A DNA stretch of 34,709 bases from an uncultured Bacilli bacterium. GTDB taxonomy: Bacteria; Bacillota_I; Bacilli_A; RF39; UBA660. The DNA lies in contig CANQHQ010000013.1 of the NCBI GenBank assembly GCA_947623825.1, forward strand, positions 1 through 34,709, written 5' to 3'. The notes beneath the pieces are model-generated. The model saw only the letters and a list, made by a program, of their open reading frames with translations, ran no database searches and was not told the origin of the DNA. The translations under genes and the position numbers were made by a program. Shown here piece after piece: positions 3,574-23,246 of this stretch (position 1 is its first letter; every line of letters starts with the position of its first letter).

Positions 3574-3588
3574 ATGAGAGGTGAAATT

Positions 3589-4419
3589 ATGAAGAAAGGG
3601 ACAAAGAAAGTAAAAATCAATAGGAAGAGAATGGCGGTTTCGATTCTTGCTGTTCTTCTTGTCGTTATCGGTAGTGTTGGGCTCTATGCTACGGTAAGAA
3701 AGAATCTGAAAGAAGAGTTAGAGCCGTTGAAAGAAATTCATGTATCTTTTGAAGACCACAGAGAGGATTTATTAAATTTCTCTTATCAAGGCGCTGCTGC
3801 TGTTGGATGGCTACAGGTACAAGGAACAAATGTAAATTTTCCAGTACTCAATTATTTCTTAACTAGCGATGCTAAGGAAACACAGTATGTTTCTAGTAAT
3901 GATATTTTGGAATATGCGTGGAGAAGTCCTAACTATGTAACAGGAGAAAATCGGGAAACCATTTTAGGACATAATCTTGTGAATCTTTCCAGTACACCTA
4001 TCCGTGATATGTCTGAACTCAAAGCATTCGAAGGATTGATGGCATTTGTTTACGAAGATTTCGCTCAAGAGAATTTGTATATTAGTTATACAAAAGGAGA
4101 GAATGAGTATATCTATAAGATTTATGCGATTGGGTTCGACGATTATGATGTCGATGATTCTTCTAGTTTTAAAACAGAAGAAGTAACAAAAGATTATATT
4201 GATCGCGTACGTAAAAATAGTATCTATGATTATGATATCGATGTAAATGAAAAGGATACCTTACTTAGTTTAAAGACTTGCACAAGATATTTTGGAGTAA
4301 ATCAAAATCAAGAATTCACCATCGATGCAAGACTTCTTCGAGAAGGGGAGAAAATCGAAGCTTATCGTGTAACGAAGAGCGAGAATTATAAAGCACTTAT
4401 AAAAAATTCTGATGTATAA
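3589..4419 (+). CDS. srtB: Class B sortase
   Basis: The protein has 276 residues with an N-terminal membrane anchor (about 15-35). The sortase core GWLQVQGTNVNFPVLNY is followed by the catalytic His in I-L-G-H-N (H128), the catalytic Cys in SLKTC (C231) and the Arg in I-D-A-R-L-L (R248). Order and spacing fit class B sortases, transpeptidases that cleave a sorting motif of an exported protein and join it to peptidoglycan or another subunit. AGAGGTG before ATG 3589 decides the start over the ATG at 3574. It sits in the surface locus just before the large secreted protein. No protein in the window shows a classical sorting signal plus C-terminal helix, so the substrate is unclear. Confidence 0.85.
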   Translation: MKKGTKKVKINRKRMAVSILAVLLVVIGSVGLYATVRKNLKEELEPLKEIHVSFEDHREDLLNFSYQGAAAVGWLQVQGTNVNFPVLNYFLTSDAKETQYVSSNDILEYAWRSPNYVTGENRETILGHNLVNLSSTPIRDMSELKAFEGLMAFVYEDFAQENLYISYTKGENEYIYKIYAIGFDDYDVDDSSSFKTEEVTKDYIDRVRKNSIYDYDIDVNEKDTLLSLKTCTRYFGVNQNQEFTIDARLLREGEKIEAYRVTKSENYKALIKNSDV

Positions 4420-4429
4420 AGTAGAAAAA

Positions 4430-4459
4430 GTAACACAAAAAATAAAAGTATGTTATAAT
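4430..4459 (+). promoter_or_regulatory. Extended -10 promoter for the large secreted protein
   Basis: TGTTATAAT (4451-4459) is a perfect extended -10 element. GTAACA at 4430-4435 is a 4-of-6 -35 match with 18-bp spacing. The distance to ATG 4489 leaves room for a short leader and a GAGAGGTG ribosome site. The 992-residue protein can therefore be transcribed separately from the sortase. Confidence 0.6.
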
Positions 4460-4488
4460 TACTTATAGAATAATAGAGAGGTGAAGAT

Positions 4489-7467
4489 ATGAGAAAGAAA
4501 GCTATGGCACTTATCACTTTTTCTTTGGTGGCAATTGTTTCTCTCTTTGCGGGATTATCTGTTGTCCAAGCGGAAGATGTGGTTCAATCATACGATGTTT
4601 GTGTGTCGAGCGGATTATATGGTGTCACTTGGAATACCAATGTTTCAACGGCAGTGCAACCTTCGATGATTGATGAGGCTGCTCTAAAGAGTGGGTATGT
4701 TGCTTTTCCGGAAGGTATAACGGAGGCTGAAAAGGCAAAATACAAAATCGACGTAACTTTTAAGACAGGGTCTTGTTATGTTGACAATAATGATGGTGGA
4801 AAGATTAAAACTTGTCCTACGAATGATGAAAAAAATCTTTTCCAAAATCATTCACTTTTGGATACAGAGCAAGTCAATGGGAAATATCGTTACAAGTATA
4901 TTGAGATGTCTTTGAATCCAACGACACTTCTTTTCCAAGTTCGAATTAAGGACATTTATAATGGAAAGGCTAAAATACGTTTGGTTACGGGTCATGGTGA
5001 ACCGAATACGGCAAATACGCAATCAGATGGTACGATGACTTTCTTGCGTAAAGAGAATGGATATTTCATTATTGATAATGTTCAGCCTTCAGGACTTAAT
5101 ATTGAAGGTGAAACTATATCAACGAATCAAATGTTACTTGAAGTATATTTGAATGATAGTTCTTCTCCATGTAATAATACTTATATAGCAAAAGCGGACT
5201 TGGTGATTGATTCCGTTGGTGAGGGGGAGGTTGCGAACCCTGCGTATACGGATCCGGCATCATATGGTTGTACGGATATTGAAAATTATATTAGGTATAT
5301 GGTATCTAAAGGAATTTATTATGATGCAAGTAAACCTGCAAATGAACTGGTTGCATCCTTAAAAAGTTCTTATTCGCCGATGTGTTTTGTTAATAAAACG
5401 ATATCCTATACCGATTTAACAAATTTGAAACAACAGATTCAACAAGATTATCAAACATTAAAAGCACTTTTTCCAGCTAGTTATGAACAAGAGAATGCTG
5501 CTTATTCTCCAGTAGATAGTAGTACTGGTTTATACTGTGATGATGGAAGTGGACGGAATTATGCTGAACAATATCGAATCGTGGGTTCTTATAGTGGCAC
5601 TTATTGGGGGGCTTCTTGTCAGGAACGTTATGAAGTAAATTATGATCATGCAAAATTAGTTCGTGCTGGTGGCGGATTTACTTACACTTCTTCTTTTAAG
5701 GCCATTCGTGAATGTACGATTTATCAAAAAGCAAAAGCTATTAGAAAGCCACAATGTTATAGTTCTTGTAGGGCTGTATGTACCTTTCCTAATGGTACGA
5801 CGATGAGTCATGCTGGTCCAAATTCTGATTTTGATAGTTGTGTTCAGTCTTGTGATGGAGGTACTTATTCACAAGAGTGTATCAATAGTTGTTATTCAGA
5901 TGTTTATGGAAGTAAATCTTCTAGGGATTTATCAAGTTTGAATGAAAAACTTGCGTTGGATAGAAAAGACTTCTTAAATGTTGAAAGAACATCAAACATT
6001 GTGCATACTTGGAGTTTGAGCGATCCAGGATGTAACAAATCTGCTTCTGGTGCGGATTTCGGAGTAGATTTTGATGTTTACCATTGTATCGCATCTTGTG
6101 GTAACGACACTGTAGAAACGGATATCTCTACGGGTTGTGATGCTGCTGGAGCTTCTTGTTCTGCCGTCAGTACCGTTGGACCTGCAGGATGTTCTTGGAA
6201 TCCACAAGCAGATTATGATCATGATATTAGTCAATCACAAAGTGAACTTGATGCTGCTAAGGCTTTAACGAATCAAGTCCAAAATACAGGAAATTATAAG
6301 ATTCGAATCGCTGATTCTTATCTTGAAAAAAATGGTGTTGCTTATGTTTACGAAGTAGACACAAACGATATTGTTTCTAGTAAAGAGACGAGTTCTGGTT
6401 GTCCAGGTGGTAATTCTACAGTTGCTTTAGGAGATTCTGGTGGTCCTAGTGCTACTTTTTGTACGAAGAACAGCACCGAGACAACTGTCAGTGTTCGTCT
6501 TGCAGAAGCGTATCTTAACAGAAGAAATGGAAATGCGGTTTATAAAAAAGGTGGAGGATATTACGCTTACAGTTCGAAGAGTGGAGCTACCACTTTACAA
6601 CGTACTTCCTTTACTGCATCTTCTTTCTATTCTAAAGAGTATCGGTATTACACTAACTTATTAAGTAGAAATGTCAATGTTGTAATTCCGGAAGATTATG
6701 AACAGTCTGTAAAATTGCTTTCTGATGAATCTTATTGGTCACAAGGAAAGAAGCAGGATACCATTACAGTCAATGTTTCTAGTTTTGGTACGGGTGGAAG
6801 ATTCAGTAAACAAATTAATTGTTACTATGGTGTATATAATGATTTGTTTATTCAACCAGATGATCCAACACTTTCTCCGTATGGACCAAATGGAAATGGT
6901 ACAGGAGGACCTGGTGATGGAACTGGTGGTGGACCTGGTGATGGAGGAGACAATTGTCCAGAATGTAGTAATGGTGGTTTAGATTATGGAGGAATTACCT
7001 TCATCTATCGTACGATTGAATTAACAGACGAGTTCCCAAATGAGAGAAATCCAAGATGGAACTGGACGGATGGTGCCGCAGTTGCCTACAATCCTGATGG
7101 TAGACTTTATAGTTTATTGAATTATAAGGTAGATCCAATTGGATTGACGCGAGATATTGAAGATAAGGGATATTCTATTTACAGTGATCCAGAAGAGGTA
7201 GATTACGATATTGTTTTAACAACACAACAAATTTTAAATATTCGTAGATATAACAAAAATGTGGAAGATTATAACGAAGATGGAAGCGAGAACTATTTAG
7301 ATTACGATATGAGTTGTGCGAATATTCGAGGAAGAGATGTATGTACCAGTAGATTCCTTAATAATGCAGATTATGTTACTTATAGTTCTGGCTATAGTGC
7401 TACGAAGAGACAAGATGTTGCAGTATGTAACAACACGAAATCTTATGGAAGCACTTGTGATGATTAG
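4489..7467 (+). CDS. Large Cys-rich secreted protein (putative adhesin or pilus-associated protein)
   Basis: The protein has 992 residues. A signal peptide (MRKKA then a hydrophobic core ending SVVQA-ED) predicts export. By my count the mature part has 31 cysteines, many in C-x3-C or C-x2-C spacing (for example PQCYSSCRAVC and DNCPEC). A Gly/Pro linker at about 6885-6945 separates a C-terminal domain of about 175 residues. There is no C-terminal hydrophobic anchor and no LPXTG-like motif, although a sortase gene is directly upstream. It has its own promoter and is followed after 9 bases by the 142-residue protein. I do not recognise the family. Its place in the locus suggests a surface tip, adhesin or secreted substrate of the pilus machine. 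Confidence 0.7.
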   Translation: MRKKAMALITFSLVAIVSLFAGLSVVQAEDVVQSYDVCVSSGLYGVTWNTNVSTAVQPSMIDEAALKSGYVAFPEGITEAEKAKYKIDVTFKTGSCYVDNNDGGKIKTCPTNDEKNLFQNHSLLDTEQVNGKYRYKYIEMSLNPTTLLFQVRIKDIYNGKAKIRLVTGHGEPNTANTQSDGTMTFLRKENGYFIIDNVQPSGLNIEGETISTNQMLLEVYLNDSSSPCNNTYIAKADLVIDSVGEGEVANPAYTDPASYGCTDIENYIRYMVSKGIYYDASKPANELVASLKSSYSPMCFVNKTISYTDLTNLKQQIQQDYQTLKALFPASYEQENAAYSPVDSSTGLYCDDGSGRNYAEQYRIVGSYSGTYWGASCQERYEVNYDHAKLVRAGGGFTYTSSFKAIRECTIYQKAKAIRKPQCYSSCRAVCTFPNGTTMSHAGPNSDFDSCVQSCDGGTYSQECINSCYSDVYGSKSSRDLSSLNEKLALDRKDFLNVERTSNIVHTWSLSDPGCNKSASGADFGVDFDVYHCIASCGNDTVETDISTGCDAAGASCSAVSTVGPAGCSWNPQADYDHDISQSQSELDAAKALTNQVQNTGNYKIRIADSYLEKNGVAYVYEVDTNDIVSSKETSSGCPGGNSTVALGDSGGPSATFCTKNSTETTVSVRLAEAYLNRRNGNAVYKKGGGYYAYSSKSGATTLQRTSFTASSFYSKEYRYYTNLLSRNVNVVIPEDYEQSVKLLSDESYWSQGKKQDTITVNVSSFGTGGRFSKQINCYYGVYNDLFIQPDDPTLSPYGPNGNGTGGPGDGTGGGPGDGGDNCPECSNGGLDYGGITFIYRTIELTDEFPNERNPRWNWTDGAAVAYNPDGRLYSLLNYKVDPIGLTRDIEDKGYSIYSDPEEVDYDIVLTTQQILNIRRYNKNVEDYNEDGSENYLDYDMSCANIRGRDVCTSRFLNNADYVTYSSGYSATKRQDVAVCNNTKSYGSTCDD

Positions 7468-7476
7468 GAGGTTCGT

Positions 7477-7905
7477 ATGAGTAAAGGAATGGTTATTGTT
7501 GCGGTTATTATTCTTGGTGTTTTAACACTTACTTGTGTTAACCTAATACAGAGTTATCAAAATGGAAATGAACTAGATTATTATTTACTAAAAGAAACAA
7601 CGGAAGCTGCGATGATTGATGCAGTTGACTATGGTTATTACAGTGCTTCCGGTGGAATTATTCGTGTTGATAGAGAGAAATTTTTAGAAAGCTTTGTCCG
7701 CCGATTCGCGGACTCTGCTTCTGCCTCTACCAATTATCGAATCAAAATCATTGATTTCAATGAAACACCGCCAAAAGTAAGTATTCAAGTAGGTACGAAT
7801 ACGATTGCTTCTTTTGCGGGTGATAATTTCGATATTGTAAATACGTTGGATGCGATTCTCGAAACAAAGTATTATGAGAAACGTCGCGTCGAAGACGTGG
7901 ATTAA
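7477..7905 (+). CDS. Small single-helix membrane protein, TadE/pseudopilin-like
   Basis: The protein has 142 residues: an N-terminal hydrophobic helix (about 4-24) with almost no leader, then a soluble domain (EAAMIDAVDYGYY ... NYRIKIIDFNETPPKVSIQV). This layout is seen in TadE/TadF-like pseudopilins that assist Flp pilus assembly, but there is no clear prepilin cleavage motif. TAGGAGG upstream of ATG 7477 supports the start. It lies between the large secreted protein and the CpaB-like protein. The exported part has no cysteines, unlike its neighbours. Confidence 0.55.
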   Translation: MSKGMVIVAVIILGVLTLTCVNLIQSYQNGNELDYYLLKETTEAAMIDAVDYGYYSASGGIIRVDREKFLESFVRRFADSASASTNYRIKIIDFNETPPKVSIQVGTNTIASFAGDNFDIVNTLDAILETKYYEKRRVEDVD

Positions 7906-7924
7906 TTAGAAAGGGGAAGAGACA

Positions 7925-8791
7925 ATGAACGTTGGTTATCAAATAAAAAGTTTTTTAACAAATAAAAATACTGTTTCCATTATTTTGGGAATTGTTGCCG
8001 TTCTTGTTTTGTGGCTTGGTTATAACTATCGTATACAACAACAGACAAGTCCAACGACAGTTCCATATGCAAGAGAGAGAATTCCTTCTAGAACACAGAT
8101 TACAGCGGATATGATTTCTACTGCAGATGTTCCTCTTGCTATGATCAAAGGGGATATTATTACAGATACTAGTGCGATTATTAATAAATACGTCAATGTA
8201 GATAGTGCGATTCCAGAAGGAAGTTTGTTCTATGTGGGATCTGTAGTAGATCAAAAAGATTTACCAGATGCGATTCTATATGATTATCCAGATGATTGGG
8301 TACTCGTTAACTTATCCGTTAACACAGAAGATACTTATGGTAATAAGATTTATCCTGAAAACTATATTGATATTTATATCAAAGCAACGAATCGAGTTGA
8401 TATTAACAATTTGACGAGTGATACAGAGGATAAAATTATGGTAGGTAAATTACTTCGTAACGTAAAAGTTTTAGCAGTTCTTGATGCGAATGGATTAGAT
8501 GTATTTGAGGATTCAGAGAATGTCAGAACGCCTTCTCAAATCTTATTTGCGGTACCAGAGGAATATCACATTTTACTAAGAAAAGCAATGTATTTAAGAA
8601 CCTATGAAGTTGCGATTATTCCAGTACCGACGAATGAATCTTTAAAAACAGAACCAGGAGAAGTTTCTATTAGTAGTGAAAGTTTAAAAGATTTCATTAA
8701 CGATGTAACGGAATTTACGGATTATGATTTATCGCAAGATACTGGAAGTCTTACTACTCCATCTACTACTACACCAACTCCTGCACAATAA
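7925..8791 (+). CDS. cpaB: CpaB/RcpC-like pilus assembly protein with SAF domain
   Basis: The protein has 288 residues. An N-terminal helix (about 14-36) is followed by a SAF-type domain: VPYARERIPSRTQITADMI, then INKYVNVDSAIPEGSLFYVGSV. The rest is a beta-rich region and a Thr/Pro-rich tail. CpaB/RcpC proteins are envelope components of Tad pilus machines that may contact peptidoglycan. The gene directly precedes the ATPase, as in many Tad loci. GAAAGGGGAAGAG precedes ATG 7925. The order CpaB-TadA-TadB-TadC supports the assignment. Confidence 0.75.
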   Translation: MNVGYQIKSFLTNKNTVSIILGIVAVLVLWLGYNYRIQQQTSPTTVPYARERIPSRTQITADMISTADVPLAMIKGDIITDTSAIINKYVNVDSAIPEGSLFYVGSVVDQKDLPDAILYDYPDDWVLVNLSVNTEDTYGNKIYPENYIDIYIKATNRVDINNLTSDTEDKIMVGKLLRNVKVLAVLDANGLDVFEDSENVRTPSQILFAVPEEYHILLRKAMYLRTYEVAIIPVPTNESLKTEPGEVSISSESLKDFINDVTEFTDYDLSQDTGSLTTPSTTTPTPAQ

Positions 8792-8818
8792 AATAAAAAA
8801 GAATAAAGAGGGGACAAT

Positions 8819-10624
8819 ATGAAAGATAACTTATTTGAACAGTTGGATTTTGGGGCTTTTAAGGAATATATCGATAATGATGATATTACCGACGTTTCTT
8901 ATACGAATAATGGGCAAATATGGATTCGTTCTCTTACGCAAGGTTCCTTACGTGTCGAGAATCCCAATATCAATAACTCTGTCGTTGAGAAATTAGCGTT
9001 TCAGTGTTCGAATGTAATGGGTACTACGTTCAATAATGCTAGTCCCTTCTTGGATGCTGAGAGCCCAGAGTTACGTATGAATTTCGTACATGATTCGATT
9101 GCGACAAACGGGATTGCACTCGTTATTCGTAAAACTCCGGCAAAGATTCGTTTGAAAGAAGAGACTTTGTTGGAAGAAGAATATGTTACGAAAGATATTC
9201 ATGATTTCTTAATTAAATGTGTTCACGGACATTGTAACATTATGGTGTGTGGAGAGACTGGTTCAGGTAAAACAGAGTTTGTAAAATATTTGGCTTCTCA
9301 TACAGTAGAAAGTGAAAAAATCATTACCATTGAGGATACGTTGGAACTTCACTTGGATAAGATTTATCCACATCGAGATATTGTAGCGATGAAAACAAAT
9401 AACATTGCTTCTTACTCAGATGTTCTTGTTACTTGTATGAGACAGAATCCAAAATGGATTTTACTTTCCGAAGTTCGTAGTGCGGAGGCTGTTACAGCCG
9501 TTCGTAACTCAATTTCTTCTGGACACAACATTTTGTCTACCATCCACTCGGATAAAGCAAATGCGATTCCGCATCGTTTGTATTCTTTGATGGAAACAGA
9601 CTTGGATGTAGATCAGTTCTTGAATACGATTTATCGTTATGTTCAAATGGGTGTACATATTAAAGCATATTACAGTCCGAAATTTAAAAAATTTCATCGT
9701 GAGATTGATGAAATTACGGAGTTTTATATCGATGAAGATAATAAACCAATCTATAACATTATTTATCAAAAGACGATGAGTGGAAAAATTGTCAAAAAGA
9801 ATCCTAGTCAACATTTAATCGATTATCTTGCAGCCCAGAATATTGATGTAGGAGATACTACTTTTGCGAATGAAGAAGACAAAGGATTATCGCTAGATGA
9901 TGTCATCGGCGAAAAAGATGAAGCAGAGGTTTTGAAGGAGCAACAAGAAAAAGAAGCAGAAAGAAAGGCGCAAGAAGAGAAGGAACAACAAGAACAAGAG
10001 AATTCAGATTCTATGAACGATTCTTCCGATTCCTCTTCTGGTGGTACCGTGATTCCACCGGTTTCTCCTGTTCCTCAAGCGGATACGGTTTCTCCTGTTG
10101 CAGAGACACCGATTGTTCCGCAAGAACCGGCTCCTTCTGTAGAGGTGCCACCGACTGTTCCTATGCCGTCCGGTTCCAGTGATTCGGTTGTAGCGACGCC
10201 GGCTCCTTCGGTGGAGGTGCCACCGGCTGTTCCTATGCCAGATCCTTCGGCCATTCGTCCAAATCCGGACCCTATTCCTGCTTCACCAACTTCTGAAGCG
10301 GTTTCTACTTCGCCTTCGAATCTTGCGCCTCCTCCTGTGATGCCAAATGTTCCACCGGCAGTAGAAAGTCCTACGGTAGTGACACCGACCGTTCCTTCGA
10401 TAGAGACTCCGGTGACTCCGAATGTAGTACCGAATGCTTCGGTTTCGCCTGTCATTCCTACGCCAACGACGGAAATTCCTAGTACTGTTCCACCGGTGAC
10501 TCCGGCTGCACCTGTACCTCCTGTACCGAGTGCTCCTGCTACACCACCAACTGCAATGGGTGGTATCCCGATTGTAGATCCAATTACTGGTTCAGTAATT
10601 CAAAATTTAAACGGTAATGTTTAA
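8819..10624 (+). CDS. tadA: TadA/CpaF-type secretion ATPase with Pro-rich C-terminal tail
   Basis: The protein has 601 residues. The first 370 or so form a VirB11/TadA-type ATPase: Walker A G-E-T-G-S-G-K-T at 145-152, Asp box I-E-D-T-L-E-L-H, Walker B region WILLSEVRSAEAV (the usual GE is SE here) and His box S-T-I-H-S-D-K. This cytoplasmic hexamer powers pilus assembly with TadB and TadC. From about residue 375 the chain becomes acidic and Gln-rich. From about 405 to the end it is rich in Pro, Val, Thr and Ser, with internal repeats. Such a tail is unusual for this family and may bind a partner. AGAGGGGAC before ATG 8819 supports the start. Confidence 0.88.
   Translation: MKDNLFEQLDFGAFKEYIDNDDITDVSYTNNGQIWIRSLTQGSLRVENPNINNSVVEKLAFQCSNVMGTTFNNASPFLDAESPELRMNFVHDSIATNGIALVIRKTPAKIRLKEETLLEEEYVTKDIHDFLIKCVHGHCNIMVCGETGSGKTEFVKYLASHTVESEKIITIEDTLELHLDKIYPHRDIVAMKTNNIASYSDVLVTCMRQNPKWILLSEVRSAEAVTAVRNSISSGHNILSTIHSDKANAIPHRLYSLMETDLDVDQFLNTIYRYVQMGVHIKAYYSPKFKKFHREIDEITEFYIDEDNKPIYNIIYQKTMSGKIVKKNPSQHLIDYLAAQNIDVGDTTFANEEDKGLSLDDVIGEKDEAEVLKEQQEKEAERKAQEEKEQQEQENSDSMNDSSDSSSGGTVIPPVSPVPQADTVSPVAETPIVPQEPAPSVEVPPTVPMPSGSSDSVVATPAPSVEVPPAVPMPDPSAIRPNPDPIPASPTSEAVSTSPSNLAPPPVMPNVPPAVESPTVVTPTVPSIETPVTPNVVPNASVSPVIPTPTTEIPSTVPPVTPAAPVPPVPSAPATPPTAMGGIPIVDPITGSVIQNLNGNV
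10127..10239 (+). repeat. Two tandem-spaced 41-bp copies encoding the Pro-rich tail repeat
   Basis: Copies at 10127-10167 and 10199-10239 differ at three positions and encode PAPSVEVPP(T/A)VPMP. They are 72 bp apart. They show that the ATPase tail grew by duplication and is probably variable in length between strains. Confidence 0.75.
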
Positions 10625-10665
10625 AAAAATCGAGTTCCAATACTAATTTAAATGAGGTGACAAAT

Positions 10666-11559
10666 ATGGAATTAGTAATTTTGTTAGCCATTATGATTTT
10701 TATCATCATTTATCGACAATACCAAGGACAGAATGTCTATAAATTCATTACGGCTCAAGCAGGTACTTTGTACGATAAGTTTGCTCCTTATTCTTTTAAA
10801 GTCATTCGTGAGAAGACAAAAGAGTTAGGGCAAGAATACACTGCCAAACAGTATGCCGTTCAGGTTGTGACGTTCTCTCTTTTTGCGGGTGTTGTCTCTT
10901 ACTTATACTTTTACAACTTATTGATTTCTATCTTTTATATTATTGCTGTCGATATGGTTATTCCGTATTTGGCATATCTACGGTGTAAGAAAGTATATAG
11001 TGAATTTCTTTTCGAACAAATACAGATTTATACGACCAATACGATTATGGAGTTTGCGACTACCCAGAGTTTCGTAAAAGCTTTGGAAGGAGTCGTGGCT
11101 TCCGGAGTTTTGGAGGAACCAGTTTTGGGTGATGTGAACCTCATGATTACCCTTGCTTATCAGAATGGTTCCATTGATGAATCCATTCAGTTTATGACCG
11201 CAAAATATCCATACTATATCGTAAAAAATATGCATCAGTTATTCTTACAGATTACCAAAGAAGGTGCCCGTGATTCTGGAGAATCCTTGGATAATATGCA
11301 ATCCGATATCGATATGCTTGTCGAAAGCGTTTATCGTGATAGAATGGATCGGGCGAACTTCCATAAAGGATTTTTGAAATACGGTGTCATTCTTTACTTA
11401 TTGGTAATGCTCGTTCAATATTTGTTAGGAAGAGATACGTATATTACAATGTTGGATAATATTATTGTAAAAATGATTTTACATGCCATTATTTGGTTAA
11501 ATAGTTATTTTCTTCTTAAGGGAGAAAAATTCTATAACGAGAATGTAGGTGAAGAGTAG
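10666..11559 (+). CDS. tadB: TadB-like inner-membrane platform protein (GspF/T2SSF family)
   Basis: The protein has 297 residues. Hydrophobic segments occur at the N-terminus, in the middle (FSLFAGVVSYLYFYNLLISIFYII) and near the C-terminus (KYGVILYLLVMLVQYLL and IIVKMILHAIIWLNSYFLL). A long soluble domain lies between them. This is the usual T2SSF-type layout of Tad platform proteins, which link the ATPase to the growing pilus. I chose ATG 10666 because TGAGGTG ends just before it; a GTG at 10657 is inside that site. The following gene starts in its stop codon. Confidence 0.75.
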   Translation: MELVILLAIMIFIIIYRQYQGQNVYKFITAQAGTLYDKFAPYSFKVIREKTKELGQEYTAKQYAVQVVTFSLFAGVVSYLYFYNLLISIFYIIAVDMVIPYLAYLRCKKVYSEFLFEQIQIYTTNTIMEFATTQSFVKALEGVVASGVLEEPVLGDVNLMITLAYQNGSIDESIQFMTAKYPYYIVKNMHQLFLQITKEGARDSGESLDNMQSDIDMLVESVYRDRMDRANFHKGFLKYGVILYLLVMLVQYLLGRDTYITMLDNIIVKMILHAIIWLNSYFLLKGEKFYNENVGEE

Positions 11560-12344
11560 TGGAGATATTAATTGTTGGTGCTATCTTCTTATTTGCCTTA
11601 TTCTATAATCAGGGAGTTAGTAGTAAAAAGTTCATTCAAGATAATAAGTTATTATTTGACAAGTTAAAAGAAGAGGATTTTGATTTCTTAGTTTCTGTTC
11701 GATATGGAGATAAAAAGACTCCGGAAGAAGTGTTCGATAAGAGAATTAAGACAGCTGGTATTGTGATGCTTGCGTTTATGTTTATTTTCTTATCTGATTT
11801 ATCTTTGATCAATATCGTTTTAGATATCGTCATTGGATATATTACATTTAAGTCAGATTATAATAACTTGAAAAAATATTATAAGAGACATTTACATGAA
11901 ATTGACGTTATGTTGCCATACTACTTAAAAGGATTAGAGATTTTGGTTCAGCATTATACGGTTCCTGTAGCCCTTGCGAAATCCATCGATGAAGCTCCTG
12001 CTGTTTTTAAACCAGGGCTTCGTACTTTGATTGCGAAGATTGATGCTGGTGATTCTTCGATCCAACCTTATATGGATTTTGCGAACGAATATCCTGTTCG
12101 TGACTCTATGCGTATGATGCGTTTGCTTTATCGTTTAGGATTAGGTTCTCAGGAAAGAAAACAAGAAAGATTACTTATGTTTTCTCGTACTGTTTCCAAT
12201 CTACAAGCGAAAGCTAGAGAGCAAAAGTATAAGGAAAGATTGGAGCATATGGAAAGTCAAACCATGGTTATGCTTGTCTGTACTGGTGCAGGAGTCATGG
12301 TATTGATTTTATTCGCTATGCTTCAGATGTTTACATCTGTATAG
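11559..12344 (+). CDS. tadC: TadC-like inner-membrane platform protein (GspF/T2SSF family)
   Basis: The protein has 261 residues, with helices at the N-terminus, at about 65-100 and at the C-terminus (MVMLVCTGAGVMVLILFAML). The cytoplasmic domain LPYYLKGLEILVQHYTVPVALAKSIDEAP is typical of TadC-type T2SSF proteins. The GTG start overlaps the TAG stop of tadB (TAGTG), so translation is probably coupled. It is the second platform subunit of the machine. Confidence 0.72.
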   Translation: MEILIVGAIFLFALFYNQGVSSKKFIQDNKLLFDKLKEEDFDFLVSVRYGDKKTPEEVFDKRIKTAGIVMLAFMFIFLSDLSLINIVLDIVIGYITFKSDYNNLKKYYKRHLHEIDVMLPYYLKGLEILVQHYTVPVALAKSIDEAPAVFKPGLRTLIAKIDAGDSSIQPYMDFANEYPVRDSMRMMRLLYRLGLGSQERKQERLLMFSRTVSNLQAKAREQKYKERLEHMESQTMVMLVCTGAGVMVLILFAMLQMFTSV

Positions 12345-12419: not shown

Positions 12420-12602
12420 ATGAAAGAAGCGACTGGTGAATTAAACATGACCGTAATTACGATTATCGCTATCGGTGCTATCATCGCATTCTTCTGGGTT
12501 ATGTGGCCTCAAATTCAAGAGAAGATTGAAAATGTATGGGGTGCTACTTCTACTTGTCCAGAAGGAATGACTGAAAAGAACGGTCTTTGCGTACAAGATT
12601 AG
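12420..12602 (+). CDS. 60-residue Flp-like pilin candidate
   Basis: The protein has a short leader MKEATG, then ELNM and a strongly hydrophobic helix (TVITIIAIGAIIAFFWVMW). A short polar tail with two cysteines follows (C-x11-C). Size and layout fit Flp/Tad major pilins, which are 50-80 residues and mostly helix. The leader matches those of the next two proteins, but the usual Glu at mature position 5 is Thr here if cleavage follows the Gly. A near-perfect AAGGAGGAG ribosome site suggests high expression. It lies directly after tadC, where pilins are often found. Confidence 0.65.
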   Translation: MKEATGELNMTVITIIAIGAIIAFFWVMWPQIQEKIENVWGATSTCPEGMTEKNGLCVQD

Positions 12603-12646
12603 TATGTATCAAATTTTCTATAAAAGAATAGAAGAGTGGTGATATC

Positions 12647-13153
12647 TTGAAAGAAGCATTTGGAGGGATATTTACCTTGGAAGCCATCACGTTCGCATTG
12701 GTAGTAATCATGTGTCTGATGGCTTTCACTGTAAATTACACAAAAGCATTTCGAGTAAAAAATGAGATTCGTAATATTATTGAGAAGAACGATGGATTAA
12801 CAGCCAATGCAGAGTTAGAAATTGCCGAATTTATCCATAATACCAATTATTATTTACCAGAGGAATATGAACAGGCATGCAAACAAATGGGATATGACGT
12901 TTATACTGGAAATTCTGCTGATGGAGCTTCTGGTATTCGTTTTTGTATCAAATGTAATTATGCAAATGCGACTGGTTGGACCAATGAAAAAGCAGAAGTA
13001 CGTGGTGTCTACTATTCCATTGCGACGTTTGTCACTTTTGATATTCCTGTTGTGAATAATATTTTCCCGATTTCGGCAAGCTTTTTTAGAATTTCAGGGG
13101 AAACACAGTTGATTTACTCAGAGAATTATAAATACAGTAGATGGTGTCAGTAA
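12647..13153 (+). CDS. Pilin-like protein with prepilin leader (minor pilin candidate)
   Basis: The protein has 168 residues. The leader MKEAFG-GIFTLEAITFALVVI fits a type IV prepilin: cleavage after a Gly leaves I-F-T-L-E with Glu at position 5, then a hydrophobic helix. The globular part has four cysteines (QAC, FCIKC, WC). It is a clear paralog of the next protein: both share the leader, the YTKAFR/YTRAFR motif after the helix and the FPISA/FPATA motif. The TTG start is supported by GTGGTGA upstream. Confidence 0.72.
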   Translation: MKEAFGGIFTLEAITFALVVIMCLMAFTVNYTKAFRVKNEIRNIIEKNDGLTANAELEIAEFIHNTNYYLPEEYEQACKQMGYDVYTGNSADGASGIRFCIKCNYANATGWTNEKAEVRGVYYSIATFVTFDIPVVNNIFPISASFFRISGETQLIYSENYKYSRWCQ

Positions 13154-13165
13154 GCAGGTGAGGAA

Positions 13166-13675
13166 ATGAGAGAAGCGATGGGTGGTGCTTTAACTTTTGA
13201 AGCACTTTTGGTCTTTTTACTATTGGTTATGGGAATCTTGTTTTTCAGTGTGAGCTATACGAGAGCATTTCGATTCAAGAATCAAGTGATTGACGTGATT
13301 GAAGAATTTGAAGGTTTGACAGAAGATGCAGAGGACAAGATAGATCGTATCGCAAAGAATCAAGAATATACCTTGGATTCTACGAGCCCTTATGCTAGAA
13401 AATGTGAGTCACGTGGATATCAGGCATTGGTTCGAAATGGAGATCCTCAATATGTTCTTTGTGTTAGTTGTGAACTCGTGGATGTTACCGGAAGAGAAGT
13501 TTCCAGTGCTCGTTATAAAGGGGCTCGTTTCCGTGTTGCTAGTTTTGTGAATGTTAATATTCCAGTGATTAAGCAAATTTTTCCAGCAACGGCAGATTTC
13601 TTGATGGTGGAAGGGGAAACCGATTTGATTTTGTCTTCTGGTAATAACTCTGAGTTGTGTAGGAATATTAATTAG
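13166..13675 (+). CDS. Pilin-like protein with prepilin leader (second copy)
   Basis: The protein has 169 residues. The leader MREAMG-GALTFEALLVFLLLV again places Glu at position 5 after cleavage at the second Gly (A-L-T-F-E). The helix is followed by YTRAFRFKNQ and a globular domain with four cysteines in the same order as in the preceding paralog (KC, LCVSC, LC). It probably arose by tandem duplication. It starts 12 bases after the previous stop, with CAGGTGAGG as ribosome site. Confidence 0.72.
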   Translation: MREAMGGALTFEALLVFLLLVMGILFFSVSYTRAFRFKNQVIDVIEEFEGLTEDAEDKIDRIAKNQEYTLDSTSPYARKCESRGYQALVRNGDPQYVLCVSCELVDVTGREVSSARYKGARFRVASFVNVNIPVIKQIFPATADFLMVEGETDLILSSGNNSELCRNIN

Positions 13676-13708: not shown

Positions 13709-14749
13709 ATGAACGTAATTATATCAAATGAAAGACAGACAGAATTAGCGAATTTGGATATTGAAGTAATTAAGTCAGTTAATGGGGTTTTTGAAGCCGA
13801 TGAACTGGTTCAGATGTTTTCTAACTTCTTTTTTGGTCGAATGATTCTTGATTTGACCGCTTTAAAAAATTATCGTGATATTCACAATTTACAGAAATTG
13901 TCTATGTCCCTAGATGTTGAAAAAATTATTGTATTGTTACCAGATACGCCTGAGTGTTTGGCTCCCCAATTTTTGTCTAAATTGATATCTATGGGGATTT
14001 ATAATTTTACTACCAATTTGGATGGGGTGAATTATTTATTACAAAATCCTAATACGTATCGTGATGTTGCCCATTTACATCAAATTGATGCTTCGGCCTC
14101 AGAACCTGCATCCGGTGGCAGTGGCATGGCTCCAGCTGCTATGATGCCAACGCCAGCGGTGGAGGATGGGACAACGATTATTAATAATATTGTCAATGGT
14201 GGTGCCTTTATTTTAGGTATCAAGAATTTGACGGAGCATGCAGGAGCAACGATGTTATCCTATTTATTGAAACTTGAATTAGATCATATTGGAAAACCCG
14301 CAGTTGCGATAGAAGTGGATCGCCATGATTTTATGTATATTAACAATAAGGAATTGGTATCCGTTTCGAAAGATTCTTTAGCACAGGAGTTGTTAAAGCA
14401 TCGAGAGGCTTCTGTCATTCTCATCGATTTAAATAGTTATGAAGGAACCGATGTTTGTACTGAAATCATTTATTTGGTAGAACCATCAACGATTAAGTTA
14501 AATAAATTGATGCGAAGAGATCGTCAGGTATTTGACAAGTTAAAAGGAAAGAAGATTGTTTTGTCGAAAAGTTTGCTTACTATGAAAGATATTACGGAAT
14601 TTGAATATGAAGCGAGAACCAAAGTGTTCTTCAATATGCCACCATTAGATGAACGGGTAAATAATTCGGAAATTCTTCAGGATTTATTGAATCGATTAGG
14701 TATTAGTACTTATTCTGCTGGAGGTTCTTCTGGTGGAGGCTTAATGTAA
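13709..14749 (+). CDS. CpaE/TadZ-like localisation protein with degenerate ParA/MinD domain
   Basis: The protein has 346 residues. The N-terminal part (about 1-125) looks like a receiver-type fold (RMILDLTALKNY, IIVLLPDTPE). An Ala/Pro/Gly linker (about 130-155) leads to a MinD/ParA-like domain starting AFILGIKNLTEHAGATMLSY. At the Walker A position it has HAGATM instead of KGGxGKT, so ATP binding is doubtful. CpaE/TadZ proteins place Tad machines at cell poles or foci. AAGGTGAT precedes ATG 13709. The family call rests on layout and location. Confidence 0.65.
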   Translation: MNVIISNERQTELANLDIEVIKSVNGVFEADELVQMFSNFFFGRMILDLTALKNYRDIHNLQKLSMSLDVEKIIVLLPDTPECLAPQFLSKLISMGIYNFTTNLDGVNYLLQNPNTYRDVAHLHQIDASASEPASGGSGMAPAAMMPTPAVEDGTTIINNIVNGGAFILGIKNLTEHAGATMLSYLLKLELDHIGKPAVAIEVDRHDFMYINNKELVSVSKDSLAQELLKHREASVILIDLNSYEGTDVCTEIIYLVEPSTIKLNKLMRRDRQVFDKLKGKKIVLSKSLLTMKDITEFEYEARTKVFFNMPPLDERVNNSEILQDLLNRLGISTYSAGGSSGGGLM

Positions 14750-14775: not shown

Positions 14776-14804
14776 TTGACGTTAATTTGATAATTCGATA
14801 TAAT
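14776..14804 (+). promoter_or_regulatory. Strong sigma-A-type promoter before the two-helix protein
   Basis: TTGACG (14776-14781), an exact 17-bp spacer and TATAAT (14799-14804) match the consensus at 11 of 12 bases. It is among the best promoters in the window. It drives the small membrane protein at 14830 and suggests that product is needed in larger amounts than the machine parts upstream. Confidence 0.8.
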
Positions 14805-14829
14805 GTTTTTAGTAAAGAGGAGGAGTATA

Positions 14830-15198
14830 ATGATGGATTTAATTCAATTTTTAGGAAAGTGTCCTGATGATTTAGCACCTATTTTTCGTTTCTTGAAACA
14901 TGGTGTATATCCAATTATTCAAATTGGTATCCCAATTATCTTGATTGTAATGGGATCTATCGATTTAGGTAAAGCAGTTTTATCAAGTGATGATAAGGAA
15001 ATTAAGTCAGCAACGAGTAAGTTAGTTAAAAGAGCCATCGCTGCTGTTGCCGTTTTCTTTGTTGCAACCATCGTTTCTTTATTGATGGGTATGTTTGCTG
15101 GAACTGGTGCCAAAGATTCTGATGCAACAAGTTGGAAAGATTGTTGGGATGATGCAAATTTAGGAACTGGTGATTCTGGTGCTGAAACTCCAAGATAA
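14830..15198 (+). CDS. Two-helix small membrane protein, VirB2/TrbC-pilin-like
   Basis: The protein has 122 residues (start at ATG 14830 or the adjacent ATG 14833; AGAGGAGGA lies before them). Two hydrophobic helices (about 25-43 and 65-87) are separated by a charged loop GKAVLSSDDKEIKSATSKLVKRA. This layout and loop resemble VirB2/TrbC-like pilins of Gram-positive bacteria, though I cannot confirm homology. Two cysteines lie outside the helices. Its strong promoter and following terminator make it a single-gene unit inside the pilus locus. Confidence 0.6.
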   Translation: MMDLIQFLGKCPDDLAPIFRFLKHGVYPIIQIGIPIILIVMGSIDLGKAVLSSDDKEIKSATSKLVKRAIAAVAVFFVATIVSLLMGMFAGTGAKDSDATSWKDCWDDANLGTGDSGAETPR

Positions 15199-15214: not shown

Positions 15215-15255
15215 AAAGGATAAGATGACTTCTATTGTCTTGTTCCTTTTTTTTT
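15215..15255 (+). terminator. Intrinsic terminator overlapping the next promoter
   Basis: AAAGGA-TAAGAT (15215-15226) pairs with GTCTTG-TTCCTTT (15237-15249) with one bulge and two wobble pairs, followed by an uninterrupted T tract to 15255. It ends the two-helix protein transcript. The right arm contains part of the -35 box of the next promoter. Confidence 0.7.
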
Positions 15256-15263
15256 GGTATAAT
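15235..15263 (+). promoter_or_regulatory. Sigma-A-type promoter for the 371-residue surface protein
   Basis: TTGTCT (15235-15240), 17-bp spacer and TATAAT (15258-15263). It lies 22 bp before ATG 15286. Its -35 box and spacer lie within the terminator hairpin and T tract of the gene upstream. Confidence 0.65.
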
Positions 15264-15285
15264 GATAGTTGTTAAGGGTGAGATT

Positions 15286-16401
15286 ATGAAAGATTTATTT
15301 GAAAATACTGGTACAAAAAAGTTGTTGTTTATTTTCGGTGGCATTGTGGGATTGGCGATATTCATCGTTGTTATTCTTCTTTTATATAATTCTTTTTTTT
15401 CTCGGATGTCTTATTCGAAAATTGAAACGACGATGGTGGAAGCCGCCAAAAAGTATTATGGAGAAAATGGTCGTCTATTGCCTTCTGAATCGGGTGAATC
15501 TGCTACTGTCAATGTGACATCTTTAGTTTCTGCTGGTTATATGGATGAGTTAAATAAATATACGAGTAGGATTGATAAGTCACTATCTTGTAGTGGTAGT
15601 GTTTTGGTTACCAATATTAATAATCAGTATCGTTATTCACCAAACTTAATTTGTGGAGAAAAATACGCTACTGAAACCTTGTTGAAGCACATTCGTGATC
15701 AAGAAGCGATTGTAACTTCTGGGGATGGGTTGTATGAATTAAATGGTGGATATGTCTTTAGAGGAGAAAATCCAAATAATGTTGTCAAGTTTGCTGATCG
15801 TACTTGGAATATTATTAAAATTCAAGATGATTATATATATATGCTTTATGCTGATGAAGAAAAGTATGATAAAAGAGTTTGGGACAATCGATATAACATT
15901 GATCGTTCCTCTGCGGTTGGTATTAATGATTTTTCTGTTAGTAGAATTCATGATTCTTTAAATAATATTTATAATTCAGGTACCTTCTTTTACGATGATG
16001 AGAAGATGTTGGTAATGCCATTTGATTTACCAATTGGAGGTCGTTCTGTGAGTGATATCGCAAACGATGGTAGTATGGAGGGTTCTAGAATTCTAGAGAA
16101 TCAATATTTAGGTCTTTTACCACTTTATGATTTTATTAATGCTAGTACTGATACCAATTGCTTATCGGCTTCTTCTAAGAGTTGTGCGAACTATAATTAT
16201 CTTTCTTATTTAGATGATGATTGGTGGTTATTGACTCCATCTAATGAGAATACCTATGAGGTGTACAATGTAACGAATGGGACAGTGTCTTTGGAATATG
16301 CAAGTGTAAATAGTATTGTACGACCATATGTCCGCTTGGTGAAAGATGTCCTTTATGTAGATGGAACAGGAGCACCATCTAATCCTTATACAATCAAATA
16401 G
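15286..16401 (+). CDS. Membrane-anchored surface protein, paralog of the 607-residue protein
   Basis: The protein has 371 residues. The N-terminal helix (about 11-34) is followed by a pseudopilin-like segment (KIETTMVEAAKKYYGENGRLLP ... LVSAGYMDELN). Next come a module with VVKFADRTWNIIKIQDD and a C-terminal part ending GTGAPSNPYTIK. This matches the layout of the protein at 1750: helix, R-L-L-P motif, CG near the end of the pseudopilin part, then DUF6273-like module and G-x-G...PY end. Four cysteines lie outside the membrane. ATG 15286 has GGGTGAG upstream. It is likely a surface subunit or minor pilin. Confidence 0.65.
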   Translation: MKDLFENTGTKKLLFIFGGIVGLAIFIVVILLLYNSFFSRMSYSKIETTMVEAAKKYYGENGRLLPSESGESATVNVTSLVSAGYMDELNKYTSRIDKSLSCSGSVLVTNINNQYRYSPNLICGEKYATETLLKHIRDQEAIVTSGDGLYELNGGYVFRGENPNNVVKFADRTWNIIKIQDDYIYMLYADEEKYDKRVWDNRYNIDRSSAVGINDFSVSRIHDSLNNIYNSGTFFYDDEKMLVMPFDLPIGGRSVSDIANDGSMEGSRILENQYLGLLPLYDFINASTDTNCLSASSKSCANYNYLSYLDDDWWLLTPSNENTYEVYNVTNGTVSLEYASVNSIVRPYVRLVKDVLYVDGTGAPSNPYTIK

Positions 16402-20448: not shown

Positions 20449-20628
20449 TTGAGAAAAGCCATTCTTTTGTTTTTCCTTTTTCTTCTTTTGCCTTGGCAGG
20501 TATCCGCTCTTTCGGTCTCGAGTGCTTCTGCCTGCCTGATGGATATGGATAGTGGGAGAGTCTTTTTTGAAAAAAATGCTCATGATGCTCGCCTCATTGC
20601 GTCTATTACTAATATTATGACTACATAG
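20449..20628 (+). pseudogene. dacB: 5' part of interrupted D-Ala-D-Ala carboxypeptidase (dacB-like)
   Basis: The TTG start has TAGGTGATG before it. The 59-codon fragment encodes a signal peptide (LFFLFLLLPWQVSALS) and the start of a DacA/DacB-type penicillin-binding protein (ACLMDMDSGRVFFEKNAHDARLIASIT). It reaches the catalytic Ser (S52) and then runs into element DNA, ending N-I-M-T-T-stop. Host sequence stops at the AA of 20611-20612. The lysine codon of S-x-T-K is therefore AAT (Asn) here. Joined at AA to 25134-26040 it gives an in-frame 356-residue enzyme. It would act outside the membrane, removing the terminal D-Ala of peptidoglycan stem peptides. The gene is interrupted rather than decayed: neither half has another defect. 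Confidence 0.88.
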
Positions 20629-20643
20629 TGATTAATCAAGAAT
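20611..20643 (+). other. attL: left junction of the serine-recombinase element
   Basis: The crossover dinucleotide is AA (20611-20612). To its right is the P' half: an arm TTATGACTACATAGTGAT (20615-20632) exactly complementary to 25112-25129. The match continues imperfectly to 20643 (26 of 29 bases in all). To the left is dacB coding sequence (B half). Confidence 0.85.
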
Positions 20644-20728
20644 ATGTAAGAATACAAAATATATGTCGTAATAATTATACTGTTTCTTATGATATTAGTT
20701 TAAATATAGTTATATATTTTAATTAGTT

Positions 20729-20757
20729 ACAGACTTATGTAGTCTGTTAGACTTTTT
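20729..20757 (+). terminator. Possible terminator near the left end of the element
   Basis: ACAGACT (20729-20735) pairs with AGTCTGT (20741-20747) around a 5-base loop; TTAGAC separates it from a six-T run. The gap before the T run makes it weaker than the next one. The loop and right arm contain ATGTAGTC, also found in the att arms, perhaps by chance. Confidence 0.4.
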
Positions 20758-20787
20758 TCAAATTCTATCGACTTTGTCAATAGTTTG

Positions 20788-20819
20788 AAAGATGATAAAA
20801 CCAAATATCATCTTTTTTT
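20788..20819 (+). terminator. Strong intrinsic terminator at the left end of the element
   Basis: A 10-bp perfect stem AAAGATGATA (20788-20797) / TATCATCTTT (20806-20815) with an 8-base loop is followed by T residues to 20819. It would stop transcription entering from the dacB-like promoter, so the downstream dacB part and spmA-spmB are cut off from that promoter while the element is present. Confidence 0.85.
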
Positions 20820-21091
20820 GTTATTGAAGAACATAATATTTTAACAATTGATTGTTATAAATAAAAATGATATTCAAACATTTTATTATGATAATCTATT
20901 TGAAAAAATTAGTTATAATTTTGATGAAAAATGCAATAATTTTTATAATACTTAAAAATGTAAAAGAAAGTGAATATAAGTTTTGTAATATAAGTGTTAT
21001 AGATAGTGAAACTATTTTTCATAAACTTGCTAATTAAGTTTAATATAATGTATAATATTATCAACAAAAATAAAAAAAGGGAGTAAAAGAT
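20820..21091 (+). promoter_or_regulatory. A+T-rich intergenic region with promoter for the HEPN-like gene
   Basis: From 20629 to 21091 no gene is visible. After the terminators the DNA is extremely A+T-rich. The best promoter is TTGCTA (21027-21032), 18-bp spacer, TATAAT (21051-21056), with AAAAGGGAG as ribosome site before ATG 21092. A second TATAAT overlaps at 21044-21049. I see nothing else I can name between 20820 and 21026. Confidence 0.5.
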
Positions 21092-23062
21092 ATGAGAAAA
21101 GTATATGATAAAGAACAATTTTTATTTACCAAAGAAGAATTAAAAAAGTTTTTATTAGGTAAAATTAAGGAAGAGAATGAACCCTATAAAGAATATCTAT
21201 TTCTCAATCCCAATGAAATTATTTTAGATTATTTGGATAAATACATTGATTTTATCACTGAATATTCCCAAAAACAAAAAATGATTTGTAATTACAGGAA
21301 TAATTTTGGTAATCTTTTTCCTGTAGATTCTTCCTATCAAATTTTAAGAGAAACTTACTTTGTTAAATGTGATGAAGACCAGTATATATTATGGTATTAT
21401 ACTTCAAAAGATGATAGTATACACAACTCTCGCAACATTAAATTATTAAACTATATTTTGAAAAAATTTCCTAATCTTGAAATTTTTCGAAATGATATAA
21501 AATTCAAAATTGCTGAACTAAAAAATATCCAAAATTTCGAAAAAACAGCAAAGAAAAATCAATTAATAACATTGAAACAGCGAATTAAAGAATTTGAAGA
21601 ATATGATATAATTTCTAAAATTGAAGATAGTTTTAAATTAGATTATAATGACGTTAAACATGAATTGTATCATTTCATAGATTTACCTAATATTACTTTA
21701 GAAGACAAGTGTATCATTTATTATTTAATATTAGTAGCTACTAAAAATATCTATTTTGGTCATAAATTAAATGGAGATCAAAGACAAAAATATTATAATG
21801 AATTTATCGAAAATATTCCTATCTATTTAGACTTTTTGGATAGTAATAGAGATAAAGTTACTAAGGAACTTGTTTACAATAAATCATGTGATGCAAGAGT
21901 TCCTTTATGGGCTTTACTACATAATGATTATGATTATAACTATATTTATCTACAAGATTTTTATTACCCCGATTTAAATTATGAGACTTTAAAAGAAATA
22001 GTAGGGCGTATTTATTTTAGTCGTTGTATTGAGGAAAAAGAATACTCTAAAGCGGAAAATTTCATTAAAAAACATCCTGTTCATTTAATTGATGAATTGA
22101 AAACTTTATCTAAAATAAGTTATGGCCACCAAAACTCTATAGTAAATCGTTTAAAGTCTAGTATCAACGATGAATACAATTTAATTAAAAATGATGTTCA
22201 CCAAGAAATTGACAGTTTTTTAAATACTGAAGATAGCGCTATTATCGATCTCCGTATTAAACCGATGCTTCATTTTTTAATTAGTTATTATTATTATCTA
22301 GAATATAAAAATGATAATTATACTAAAGATGCCTTATTTAACTTTTTAAATTTATTTAAAACTAAATATGAAATTGATAATTTTTTACAGGCTTGTAAAT
22401 ATGAAAACCTAACACAAAAAATTATAGATTTAAAAATAAGCAAACCTGATGAAGATGTTGAAAAGGCTGTAGATAATATTCATACTTTAATATCCAATGA
22501 TATTAAAGTTGATTCCTATGATTTAAACAATATCGCTACTTTATATCCCTATATTGATTTTAATAATTTAAATTCTAAAACTAAAGAGTTTGTTGCAACA
22601 GGAGAATATATTATTGCTAATTTTAATAGTAATTCTAAAAATTTTGATTATTCTGCTGCCGTTATTGAATGGTCTAAAGCAGTAGAACTTGAAATGTCAG
22701 AAAAACTAATCAAAAAACTGACGAAAGAAGAACAAAAAGAAATTAATAATTATGCTAAAAAAATCAATTCAACTTTAGAAATAAAGTTTATTCCTACAAC
22801 TTTGGGTTTATTTAATAAATTAGAAAAAAGTCACCTAGAAGATTATTTATATAAGAATTATTATAGTAAAATTTATACCTTTCAAGAAGAAGAATATAAA
22901 AATTTATGCACTTATGTAAGAGAATTAACAAAACCAAGAAATGATGCAGCACATAAAGATCACACTATTGATATAGTTACTGCTAAAGAGTGCCAAGATA
23001 GAATCCTAGCAGCTAATAAAATCTTAACAATTTTATCTAAATTACAACTTAAAACTAAATAA
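21092..23062 (+). CDS. 656-residue protein with C-terminal HEPN-like motif (candidate defence RNase)
   Basis: This is a large soluble protein without signal peptide or membrane segment, mostly helical by composition and rich in Lys, Asn, Tyr and Asp. The last 130 residues or so start with an AAVIEWSKAVELEMSEKLI helix. They contain LTKPRNDAAHKDH, where R616-N-D-A-A-H621 fits the R-x4-6-H catalytic motif of HEPN RNases, followed by an amphipathic helix. HEPN proteins often act in abortive-infection and toxin systems. The N-terminal 500 residues are unfamiliar and could be a sensor. It is the only large cargo gene of the element and has its own promoter. Family membership is inferred from the motif and the helical context. 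Confidence 0.6.
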   Translation: MRKVYDKEQFLFTKEELKKFLLGKIKEENEPYKEYLFLNPNEIILDYLDKYIDFITEYSQKQKMICNYRNNFGNLFPVDSSYQILRETYFVKCDEDQYILWYYTSKDDSIHNSRNIKLLNYILKKFPNLEIFRNDIKFKIAELKNIQNFEKTAKKNQLITLKQRIKEFEEYDIISKIEDSFKLDYNDVKHELYHFIDLPNITLEDKCIIYYLILVATKNIYFGHKLNGDQRQKYYNEFIENIPIYLDFLDSNRDKVTKELVYNKSCDARVPLWALLHNDYDYNYIYLQDFYYPDLNYETLKEIVGRIYFSRCIEEKEYSKAENFIKKHPVHLIDELKTLSKISYGHQNSIVNRLKSSINDEYNLIKNDVHQEIDSFLNTEDSAIIDLRIKPMLHFLISYYYYLEYKNDNYTKDALFNFLNLFKTKYEIDNFLQACKYENLTQKIIDLKISKPDEDVEKAVDNIHTLISNDIKVDSYDLNNIATLYPYIDFNNLNSKTKEFVATGEYIIANFNSNSKNFDYSAAVIEWSKAVELEMSEKLIKKLTKEEQKEINNYAKKINSTLEIKFIPTTLGLFNKLEKSHLEDYLYKNYYSKIYTFQEEEYKNLCTYVRELTKPRNDAAHKDHTIDIVTAKECQDRILAANKILTILSKLQLKTK

Positions 23063-23246
23063 AGAAAGAATTACTTAATTCACAATCTAATAGATTTGAT
23101 ATAGCAAAGCTATTCAAAACTTTAAAAATTAACGTTATATATATCTATAAATTATTATTTGAAAATTTAATATTTTAAATAATGATTTATAAGGTGTATT
23201 CTCTTTCAGTATGAAATACTAAATTTCAACTTAAGAAAAGTCCATG

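Follow-up and report, generated by a model that had tools for sequence, protein, structure and literature searches.

Predicted pilus-like subunits of uncultured Bacilli share an almost fixed six-residue start across about 50 related genera

Type IV pilins carry leaders whose published lengths range from 6 to 26 residues, the leader of P. aeruginosa PilA being six residues long (PMC4471445). Processing by a prepilin peptidase is a feature of the known type IV pilins, in which a glutamate at mature position 5 (Glu5) is "often, but not always" present (PMC10191384). In the parts of the conjugation literature on which we draw, the IncI plasmids R64 and TP114 as well as PAPI-1 encode type IVb pili together with a conjugative type IV secretion system (T4SS), and these pili serve in mate recognition (PMC9045228, PMC5297154). 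From gut Firmicutes, the section of Miller et al. 2022 that concerns us flags an operon of DUF5411, CpaF and PilC genes as predicted to be secretion-related (PMC9523054). Among open-licence papers, nothing relevant was found on RF39-type pili, on DUF4320 or DUF6133, or on a hybrid of Tad and VirB4 components.

The locus compared here with these systems lies in a window of 34,709 nucleotides, the whole stretch of DNA that was analysed. A preliminary description had singled out three open reading frames beginning MKEATG (60 residues), MKEAFG (168 residues) and MREAMG (169 residues), each continuing into one hydrophobic helix; their coordinates and starts were confirmed. They stand in the following gene cluster.

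7477..7905, + strand: pilin-like DUF5411 protein (PF17424, 160.7 bits, cut-off 30; AF2 model with pLDDT 80.5, helix 3-48).
7925..8791, + strand: CpaB/RcpC-like protein with a SAF domain (PF08666, 22.1 bits, cut-off 21; PF16976 and TIGR03177 below cut-off).
8819..10624, + strand: CpaF/VirB11-type assembly ATPase with a long Pro-rich tail (PF00437, 88.8 bits).
10657..11559, + strand: first inner-membrane platform-like protein, in the TadB position and with the transmembrane layout of the same genome's conventional TadB.
11559..12344, + strand: second inner-membrane platform-like protein, in the TadC position and with the TadC transmembrane layout.
12420..12602, + strand: 60-residue single-helix subunit, MKEATGELNMTV..., ATG start; candidate filament shaft, with 67 homologs in 53 of 61 loci.
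12647..13153, + strand: 168-residue pilin-like subunit, MKEAFGG, TTG start; 84 homologs including both paralogs; AF2 model with pLDDT 87.
13166..13675, + strand: 169-residue paralog, MREAMGG, ATG start; same family as 12647-13153 and its sister in the tree (support 0.64).
13709..14749, + strand: TadZ/CpaE-like protein with a degenerate P-loop; 51 loci, invariant G170/T175/A178/G179/T181 stretch.
14803..15198, + strand: VirB2-like small two-helix protein (PF18895 T4SS_pilin, 21.4 bits, below the cut-off of 26.6).
15235..16401, + strand: DUF6273-like protein, 40% identical to L242:7383-8606.

The best solved relative of the ATPase is CpaF (E 8e-18). Neither the two platform-like proteins nor the TadZ-like protein has a Pfam match, and the platform and TadZ names are given by position and topology. 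No homolog of the 60-residue protein matched Flp (PF04964), which in the window's genome is matched solely by a pilin on contig C44. Profile-profile comparison of the window's pilin-like families with conventional Flp and TadE was not significant or weak (41.6% for the TadE type), and neither the large pilin-like family nor the TadB-like one gave a match in a sequence search of solved structures. Directly 5' of the DUF5411 gene, at 3574-7467, a sortase-like protein is followed by a 992-aa Cys-rich secreted protein, a pair found in about 14 of the 61 loci. Proteins of the DUF6273 type flank the locus (1741-3573 and 15235-16401) and share a similar segment after the N-terminal helix. A low-GC insertion at 20625-25140 contains a 656-aa ORF and the gene for a large serine recombinase (23495-25123); the gene that it interrupts, between ...SITNIMTT and IRKIMTAILAIE..., is D-Ala-D-Ala carboxypeptidase-like.

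The shared start of the three proteins is not due to chance. The pattern M[KR][ED][AS].G stands at the N-terminus of 51 of the 67 small and 59 of the 84 large homologs and at that of none of the 731 other ORFs of at least 100 aa from the same loci, so that the loss of conservation in homologs, which the preliminary description had named as refuting its leader, was not observed. An SD-like site lies 3-13 nt 5' of the MKEA-type start in 65/67 small and 75/84 large homologs, compared with 8/201 and 4/252 control positions, respectively, indicating that the motif is the true N-terminus. The 168-aa ORF begins with TTG, and no other start lies between the preceding stop and this codon. Conservation in the 60-residue family is highest over residues 1-11, whose mean information exceeds that of the following helix (K2 in 65, A4 in 65, G6 in 64, E7 in 66 and T11 in 64 of 67), and Gly6 recurs in 76 of the 84 large homologs. 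Third codon positions within the motif vary (GCA, GCT, GCG or GCC for A4; GGA, GGT or GGG for G6) while the residues are fixed, which places the constraint at the protein level. Judged from the sequences, these pilus-like subunits hardly vary in their first six residues among about 50 related genera. The set of three proteins is nonetheless incomplete, since 28 of 62 DUF5411 homologs also start M[KR][EDQ][AS]; many DUF5411 homologs start MKES[FY]WG, and the window's own begins MSKG and belongs to a sub-lineage with an MSKG or MNKG start.

Within one family of uncultured Bacilli, DUF5411, used as a marker of the locus, was detected in 119/145 genomes; the relatives in public records, Candidatus Onthousia among them, are uncultured Bacilli that in many cases come from animal guts or rumen. 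Of 61 loci, almost every one from a separate genus, 53-58 retain the gene block, and the order DUF5411-CpaB-CpaF-TadB-TadC-small(1-2)-large(1-2)-TadZ is retained in most of 60 relatives' loci. In part, this bears out the preliminary description: the three genes lie in a Tad-like filament locus and are kept together across genera. Outside the family, among genomes sampled in the phylum, DUF5411 gave four matches in other families of the class. One was over the cut-off, and its locus shows the familiar order DUF5411-CpaB-CpaF-platform proteins, after which comes a different small protein and no MKEA protein. In another family of the class (L241, genome G506), a distant locus of this kind runs from DUF5411 through CpaB and CpaF to two platform proteins and continues with a 114-aa single-helix protein that begins MGKGVEIFGG (weak DUF4320 match) and a 1173-aa Ig-like surface protein.

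We interpret the three proteins as subunits of a type IV filament machine, Tad-like but divergent, that is functionally tied to a T4SS, and put the probability of this reading at roughly one half. It draws on gene order and its conservation, the N-terminal motif, the CpaF-type ATPase, the CpaB-like protein and the secretion block described below; counted against it are the unmatched platform and TadZ-like proteins, the missing Flp match, a hydrophilic ELNMT stretch in the small protein, the absence of a peptidase from the locus and the position of the block on another contig. In the proposed machine, the subunits would insert N-in/C-out, and the start M[KR][ED][AS]xG would serve as a recognition tag specific to this system, which the machine and/or the A24 prepilin peptidase would read ahead of assembly or in its course; the genome's single A24 copy would most likely cut after Gly. 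CpaF and the two platform proteins may drive the 60-residue helix to form a thin shaft or pseudopilus, with the 168/169-residue proteins and DUF5411 possibly forming the filament tip or base, as caps or initiators. The filament could then contact a target, or span the wall towards one, that is served by the VirB/VirD4 secretion channel, a role modelled on the conjugative type IVb pili of IncI plasmids as presented in the part of the source used (PMC9045228). By its position and size, the 60-residue protein is plausibly the main subunit; it and the VirB2-like protein (14803-15198) are the two candidate filament subunits.

Is the conserved start a cleaved leader? The preliminary description had called it unusually short, a claim we reject because the leader of P. 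aeruginosa PilA also has six residues (PMC4471445). It had further presented Glu at mature position 5 of the two larger proteins as the hallmark for assembly. The residue is indeed there in both if they are cut after Gly7, and placing Glu and Thr at position 5 requires two cut sites, Gly7 in the large proteins and Gly6 in the small one. Among the 84 large homologs, however, the corresponding residue 12 is N in 21, Q in 15, T in 10, G in 7, K in 6, Y in 5 and others in the rest, and Glu is confined to the pair from the window (2/84). Likewise, none of 105 homologs from 80 further loci (named genome records) carries Glu at this residue. Since the two window paralogs are sisters in the tree, a single local gain can explain Glu in both; being private to this species' two paralogs, Glu5 cannot be the system's assembly signal, and we rejected it as such. 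The preliminary description is supported in part, by the shared and conserved start at true N-termini, the Tad-like locus and the predicted pilin-like layout, while the short length, the Glu5 hallmark and the completeness of the set do not stand. Most of the initial reasons for calling the proteins pilins with a short cleaved leader fail.

As in class III leaders, the start is hydrophilic and ends in Gly/Ala, position 6 being Gly in 64/67 of the small and 76/84 of the large homologs, and in the large proteins 20-25 mainly hydrophobic residues follow directly after the Gly. In the small family, ELNMT or EANMT lies between Gly6 and the hydrophobic tract, which runs from about residue 11-12; with residues 1-11 conserved and Glu after the Gly, a class III leader appears to fit the 60-residue family poorly.

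In classical pilins, the free N-terminal amine pairs with Glu5. A possible, though doubtful, alternative is that there is no leader at all and that the MKEA start stays in the mature subunits, where the basic residue 2 and the acidic residue 3 would pair between neighbours and, joined by the invariant Glu7 of the small protein, substitute for the pair of amine and Glu5. This would agree with residues 2-11 being the best conserved of the 60-residue family, whereas the leaders of the same bacterial family's ordinary Tad pilins are variable; with the lack of any acidic residue at 8-28 in 67/67 small and 82/84 large homologs, the exceptions being the two window proteins; with the late beginning of the small protein's hydrophobic tract; and with paralogs that have no Gly/Ala at the cut site, such as MKEATEELSS in L059. 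Against it, Gly6 is almost invariant, as at a cut site, and cleavage by a prepilin peptidase is the rule for known type IV pilins (PMC10191384).

The distribution of the peptidase also bears on this alternative. The window's genome encodes exactly one A24 prepilin peptidase, which has the family-invariant Asp residues and adjoins a PilC gene on contig C3; in a profile search of the genome's contigs this was the single match, with none on the window's contig. The suggestion of one peptidase and joint assembly is consistent with this single copy and with genes that stay together across genera, but none is encoded within the locus. TadV can be encoded away from the Tad locus. Across the family, A24 was detected in 132/145 genomes. 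It is missing in 10 of 113 good genomes, about what is expected from 90-97% complete MAGs, and was undetected in 7 DUF5411-positive genomes even with a family-specific profile and at E<=10. Several genomes without detectable A24 still encode canonical KG|QALVE pilins. Given the MAG incompleteness and these pilins, the absence of A24 is no evidence of independence from it, which weakens the case for an uncleaved start. The most suggestive single case in its favour is G083, which has the locus, no detectable A24 and no T2SSF-type platform.

Predicted structures agree with the earlier view that the larger proteins are pilin-like. The model of the 168-aa protein consists of a 45-residue N-terminal helix and an alpha/beta head (pLDDT 87), and that of DUF5411 of a 46-residue helix and a three-stranded sheet (pLDDT 80.5), a predicted layout compatible with the lollipop fold of type IV pilins, in which a long alpha1 carries a beta-sheet head. 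Repeated matches to solved pilins or pseudopilins (for the large protein, EpsI 2ret, Z 4.3; S. sanguinis PilA 7o5y, Z 3.6; TcpA 8uhf, Z 3.2; FimA, Z 2.6; for DUF5411, PilA4 6xxd, Z 5.1) are weak (Z 2.2-5.1), with pilins tied with unrelated proteins (Foldseek, VIA-align).

In relatives, the VirB2-like gene is followed 3' by genes for a TrbL/VirB6 protein, a VirB3-sized protein and a split VirB4, giving a block VirB2-VirB6-VirB3-VirB4N-VirB4C on the same strand in which the N part of VirB4 has about 190 aa and the C part about 600 aa. The VirB4 C part of the split type is listed in 118/145 genomes, 106 of which also have DUF5411; the two lie 9-17 kb apart in 46 of these 106 and on separate contigs of fragmented assemblies in 57. 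Homologs of VirB4, VirD4 and VirB6 are all present in the linked block. In the window's genome, VirD4 (NF045973, 311 bits, cut-off 250) and both VirB4 parts lie on contig C10 rather than on the window's contig, in a block (L143, C10:22000-37605, at 1-10435) that comprises VirB2-like, VirB6-like and VirB3-like proteins, the split VirB4, a SpoIID-NlpC/P60 hydrolase and VirD4, as well as a 229-aa protein with a lipoprotein-like start. No relaxase was seen in the stretches read, this block included. The PrgI model PF12666 had no match in the window's genome, and the relatives' VirB3-like protein also has no informative Pfam/NCBIfam match. In six relatives (L045, L061, L043, L077, L081, L242), the block VirB4 consists of two ORFs (~190 + 600 aa), and the genomes of some of them carry separate full-length VirB4 genes of ~790-840 aa.

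In G013 the block ends VirD4-DUF6273, with DUF3603 and trpS further on; in the window, DUF6273, then DUF3603 and trpS, lie 3' of the VirB2-like gene. Given this shared order, the simplest reading is that the secretion block was once part of the window operon and would have moved in the window's lineage. We propose, tentatively and with well under even confidence, a single hybrid machine in which a Tad-like filament, the MKEA N-terminus of its subunits kept or recognised, is combined genetically and functionally with the split-VirB4 VirB/VirD4 system and inherited vertically family-wide. The small proteins could instead be membrane or pseudopilus parts of the T4SS channel itself, helping it to cross the thick wall without forming a surface pilus. 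This we consider rather unlikely: their genes are contiguous with those of VirB2, VirB6, VirB3, VirB4 and VirD4 in relatives, and the VirB11 model gives the ATPase a slightly better score (114.4 bits) than the TadA model does (95.6 bits; both below cut-off), but the CpaB-like and paired platform-like genes indicate a filament machine. Moreover, a split VirB4 without DUF5411 occurs in 12 genomes, and DUF5411 without a split VirB4 among the matches listed in 13, suggesting that the two modules may be separable.

Among known filament types, a TadA/CpaF ATPase and an RcpC/CpaB protein are present, as in Tad systems; for the paired TadB/TadC there are two genes with matching membrane topology, with no model match and no significant hhalign comparison to the conventional TadB/TadC of the same family. 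Because Flp (PF04964) and an in-locus TadV are missing, the locus is best assigned to type IV filaments and not to the Tad pilus, being Tad-like by its ATPase, CpaB-like protein and layout. The same genome carries an ordinary Tad operon on its own contig, C44 (L094, 2171-7042), with Flp, two TadE/F-like pilins, TadZ, CpaF, TadB and TadC and no peptidase, and with canonical pilins (KG|QALVEY, in Flp KG|QALVEYV, and KG|QALIEF). That the window locus itself encodes a normal monoderm Tad/Flp pilus, its Flp and TadE/F pilins cleaved and unusual in nothing but their drifted sequences, is very unlikely: CpaB, CpaF, paired platform-like genes, a TadZ-like gene and one short plus two longer pilin-like genes would fit, but such an operon already exists on C44, none of the Tad models scores over the cut-off with the window's pilins, its platforms or its TadZ-like protein, the homologs lack Glu5, and the window-type locus is linked in relatives to VirB/VirD4 genes, to our knowledge no known Tad feature.

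If the interpretation as a filament machine is correct, a whole bacterial family would possess a type IV filament whose subunits bear a fixed N-terminal signature instead of the Glu5 mark by which pilins are recognised, and which would be tied to a chromosomal T4SS in uncultured gut bacteria. It would also provide a simple sequence rule for finding the subunits, namely M[KR][ED][AS]xG followed by one helix, and would allow the question whether a cleaved leader is always required for type IV filaments to be tested directly.

The operon of Miller et al. 2022 resembles the window locus in bringing together DUF5411, a CpaF ATPase and a PilC/GspF-like membrane protein in gut Firmicutes, and from these shared components we infer that the two are the same system; it differs in coming from Roseburia, Ruminococcus and Eubacterium, and the section concerned mentions neither MKEA subunits nor a VirB/VirD4 block (PMC9523054). 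With the type IVb pili of IncI plasmids and PAPI-1, as described in the parts of those papers used, the locus has in common that genes for a type IV filament accompany those for a T4SS (PMC9045228, PMC5297154). Those pili belong to mobile elements of diderms and consist of type IVb pilins, whereas here a chromosomal Bacilli locus has Tad-like parts. The linked block is like Gram-positive T4SSs (CD1110/CD1115, mycoplasma ICE) in its VirB4 (NF045975/NF045971), VirD4 (NF045973), NlpC/P60 hydrolase and VirB6/TrbL, and unlike them in its VirB4 split into ~190 + ~600 aa and its linkage to a Tad-like module. With the Tad/Flp pilus, finally, the locus has in common the CpaF ATPase, the CpaB-like protein, the gene content and one short plus two longer single-helix subunits; by contrast, the window has no Flp, TadE, T2SSF or TadZ model match over the cut-off and no in-locus TadV, and its subunits, in place of a conserved Glu5, carry the fixed MKEA start.
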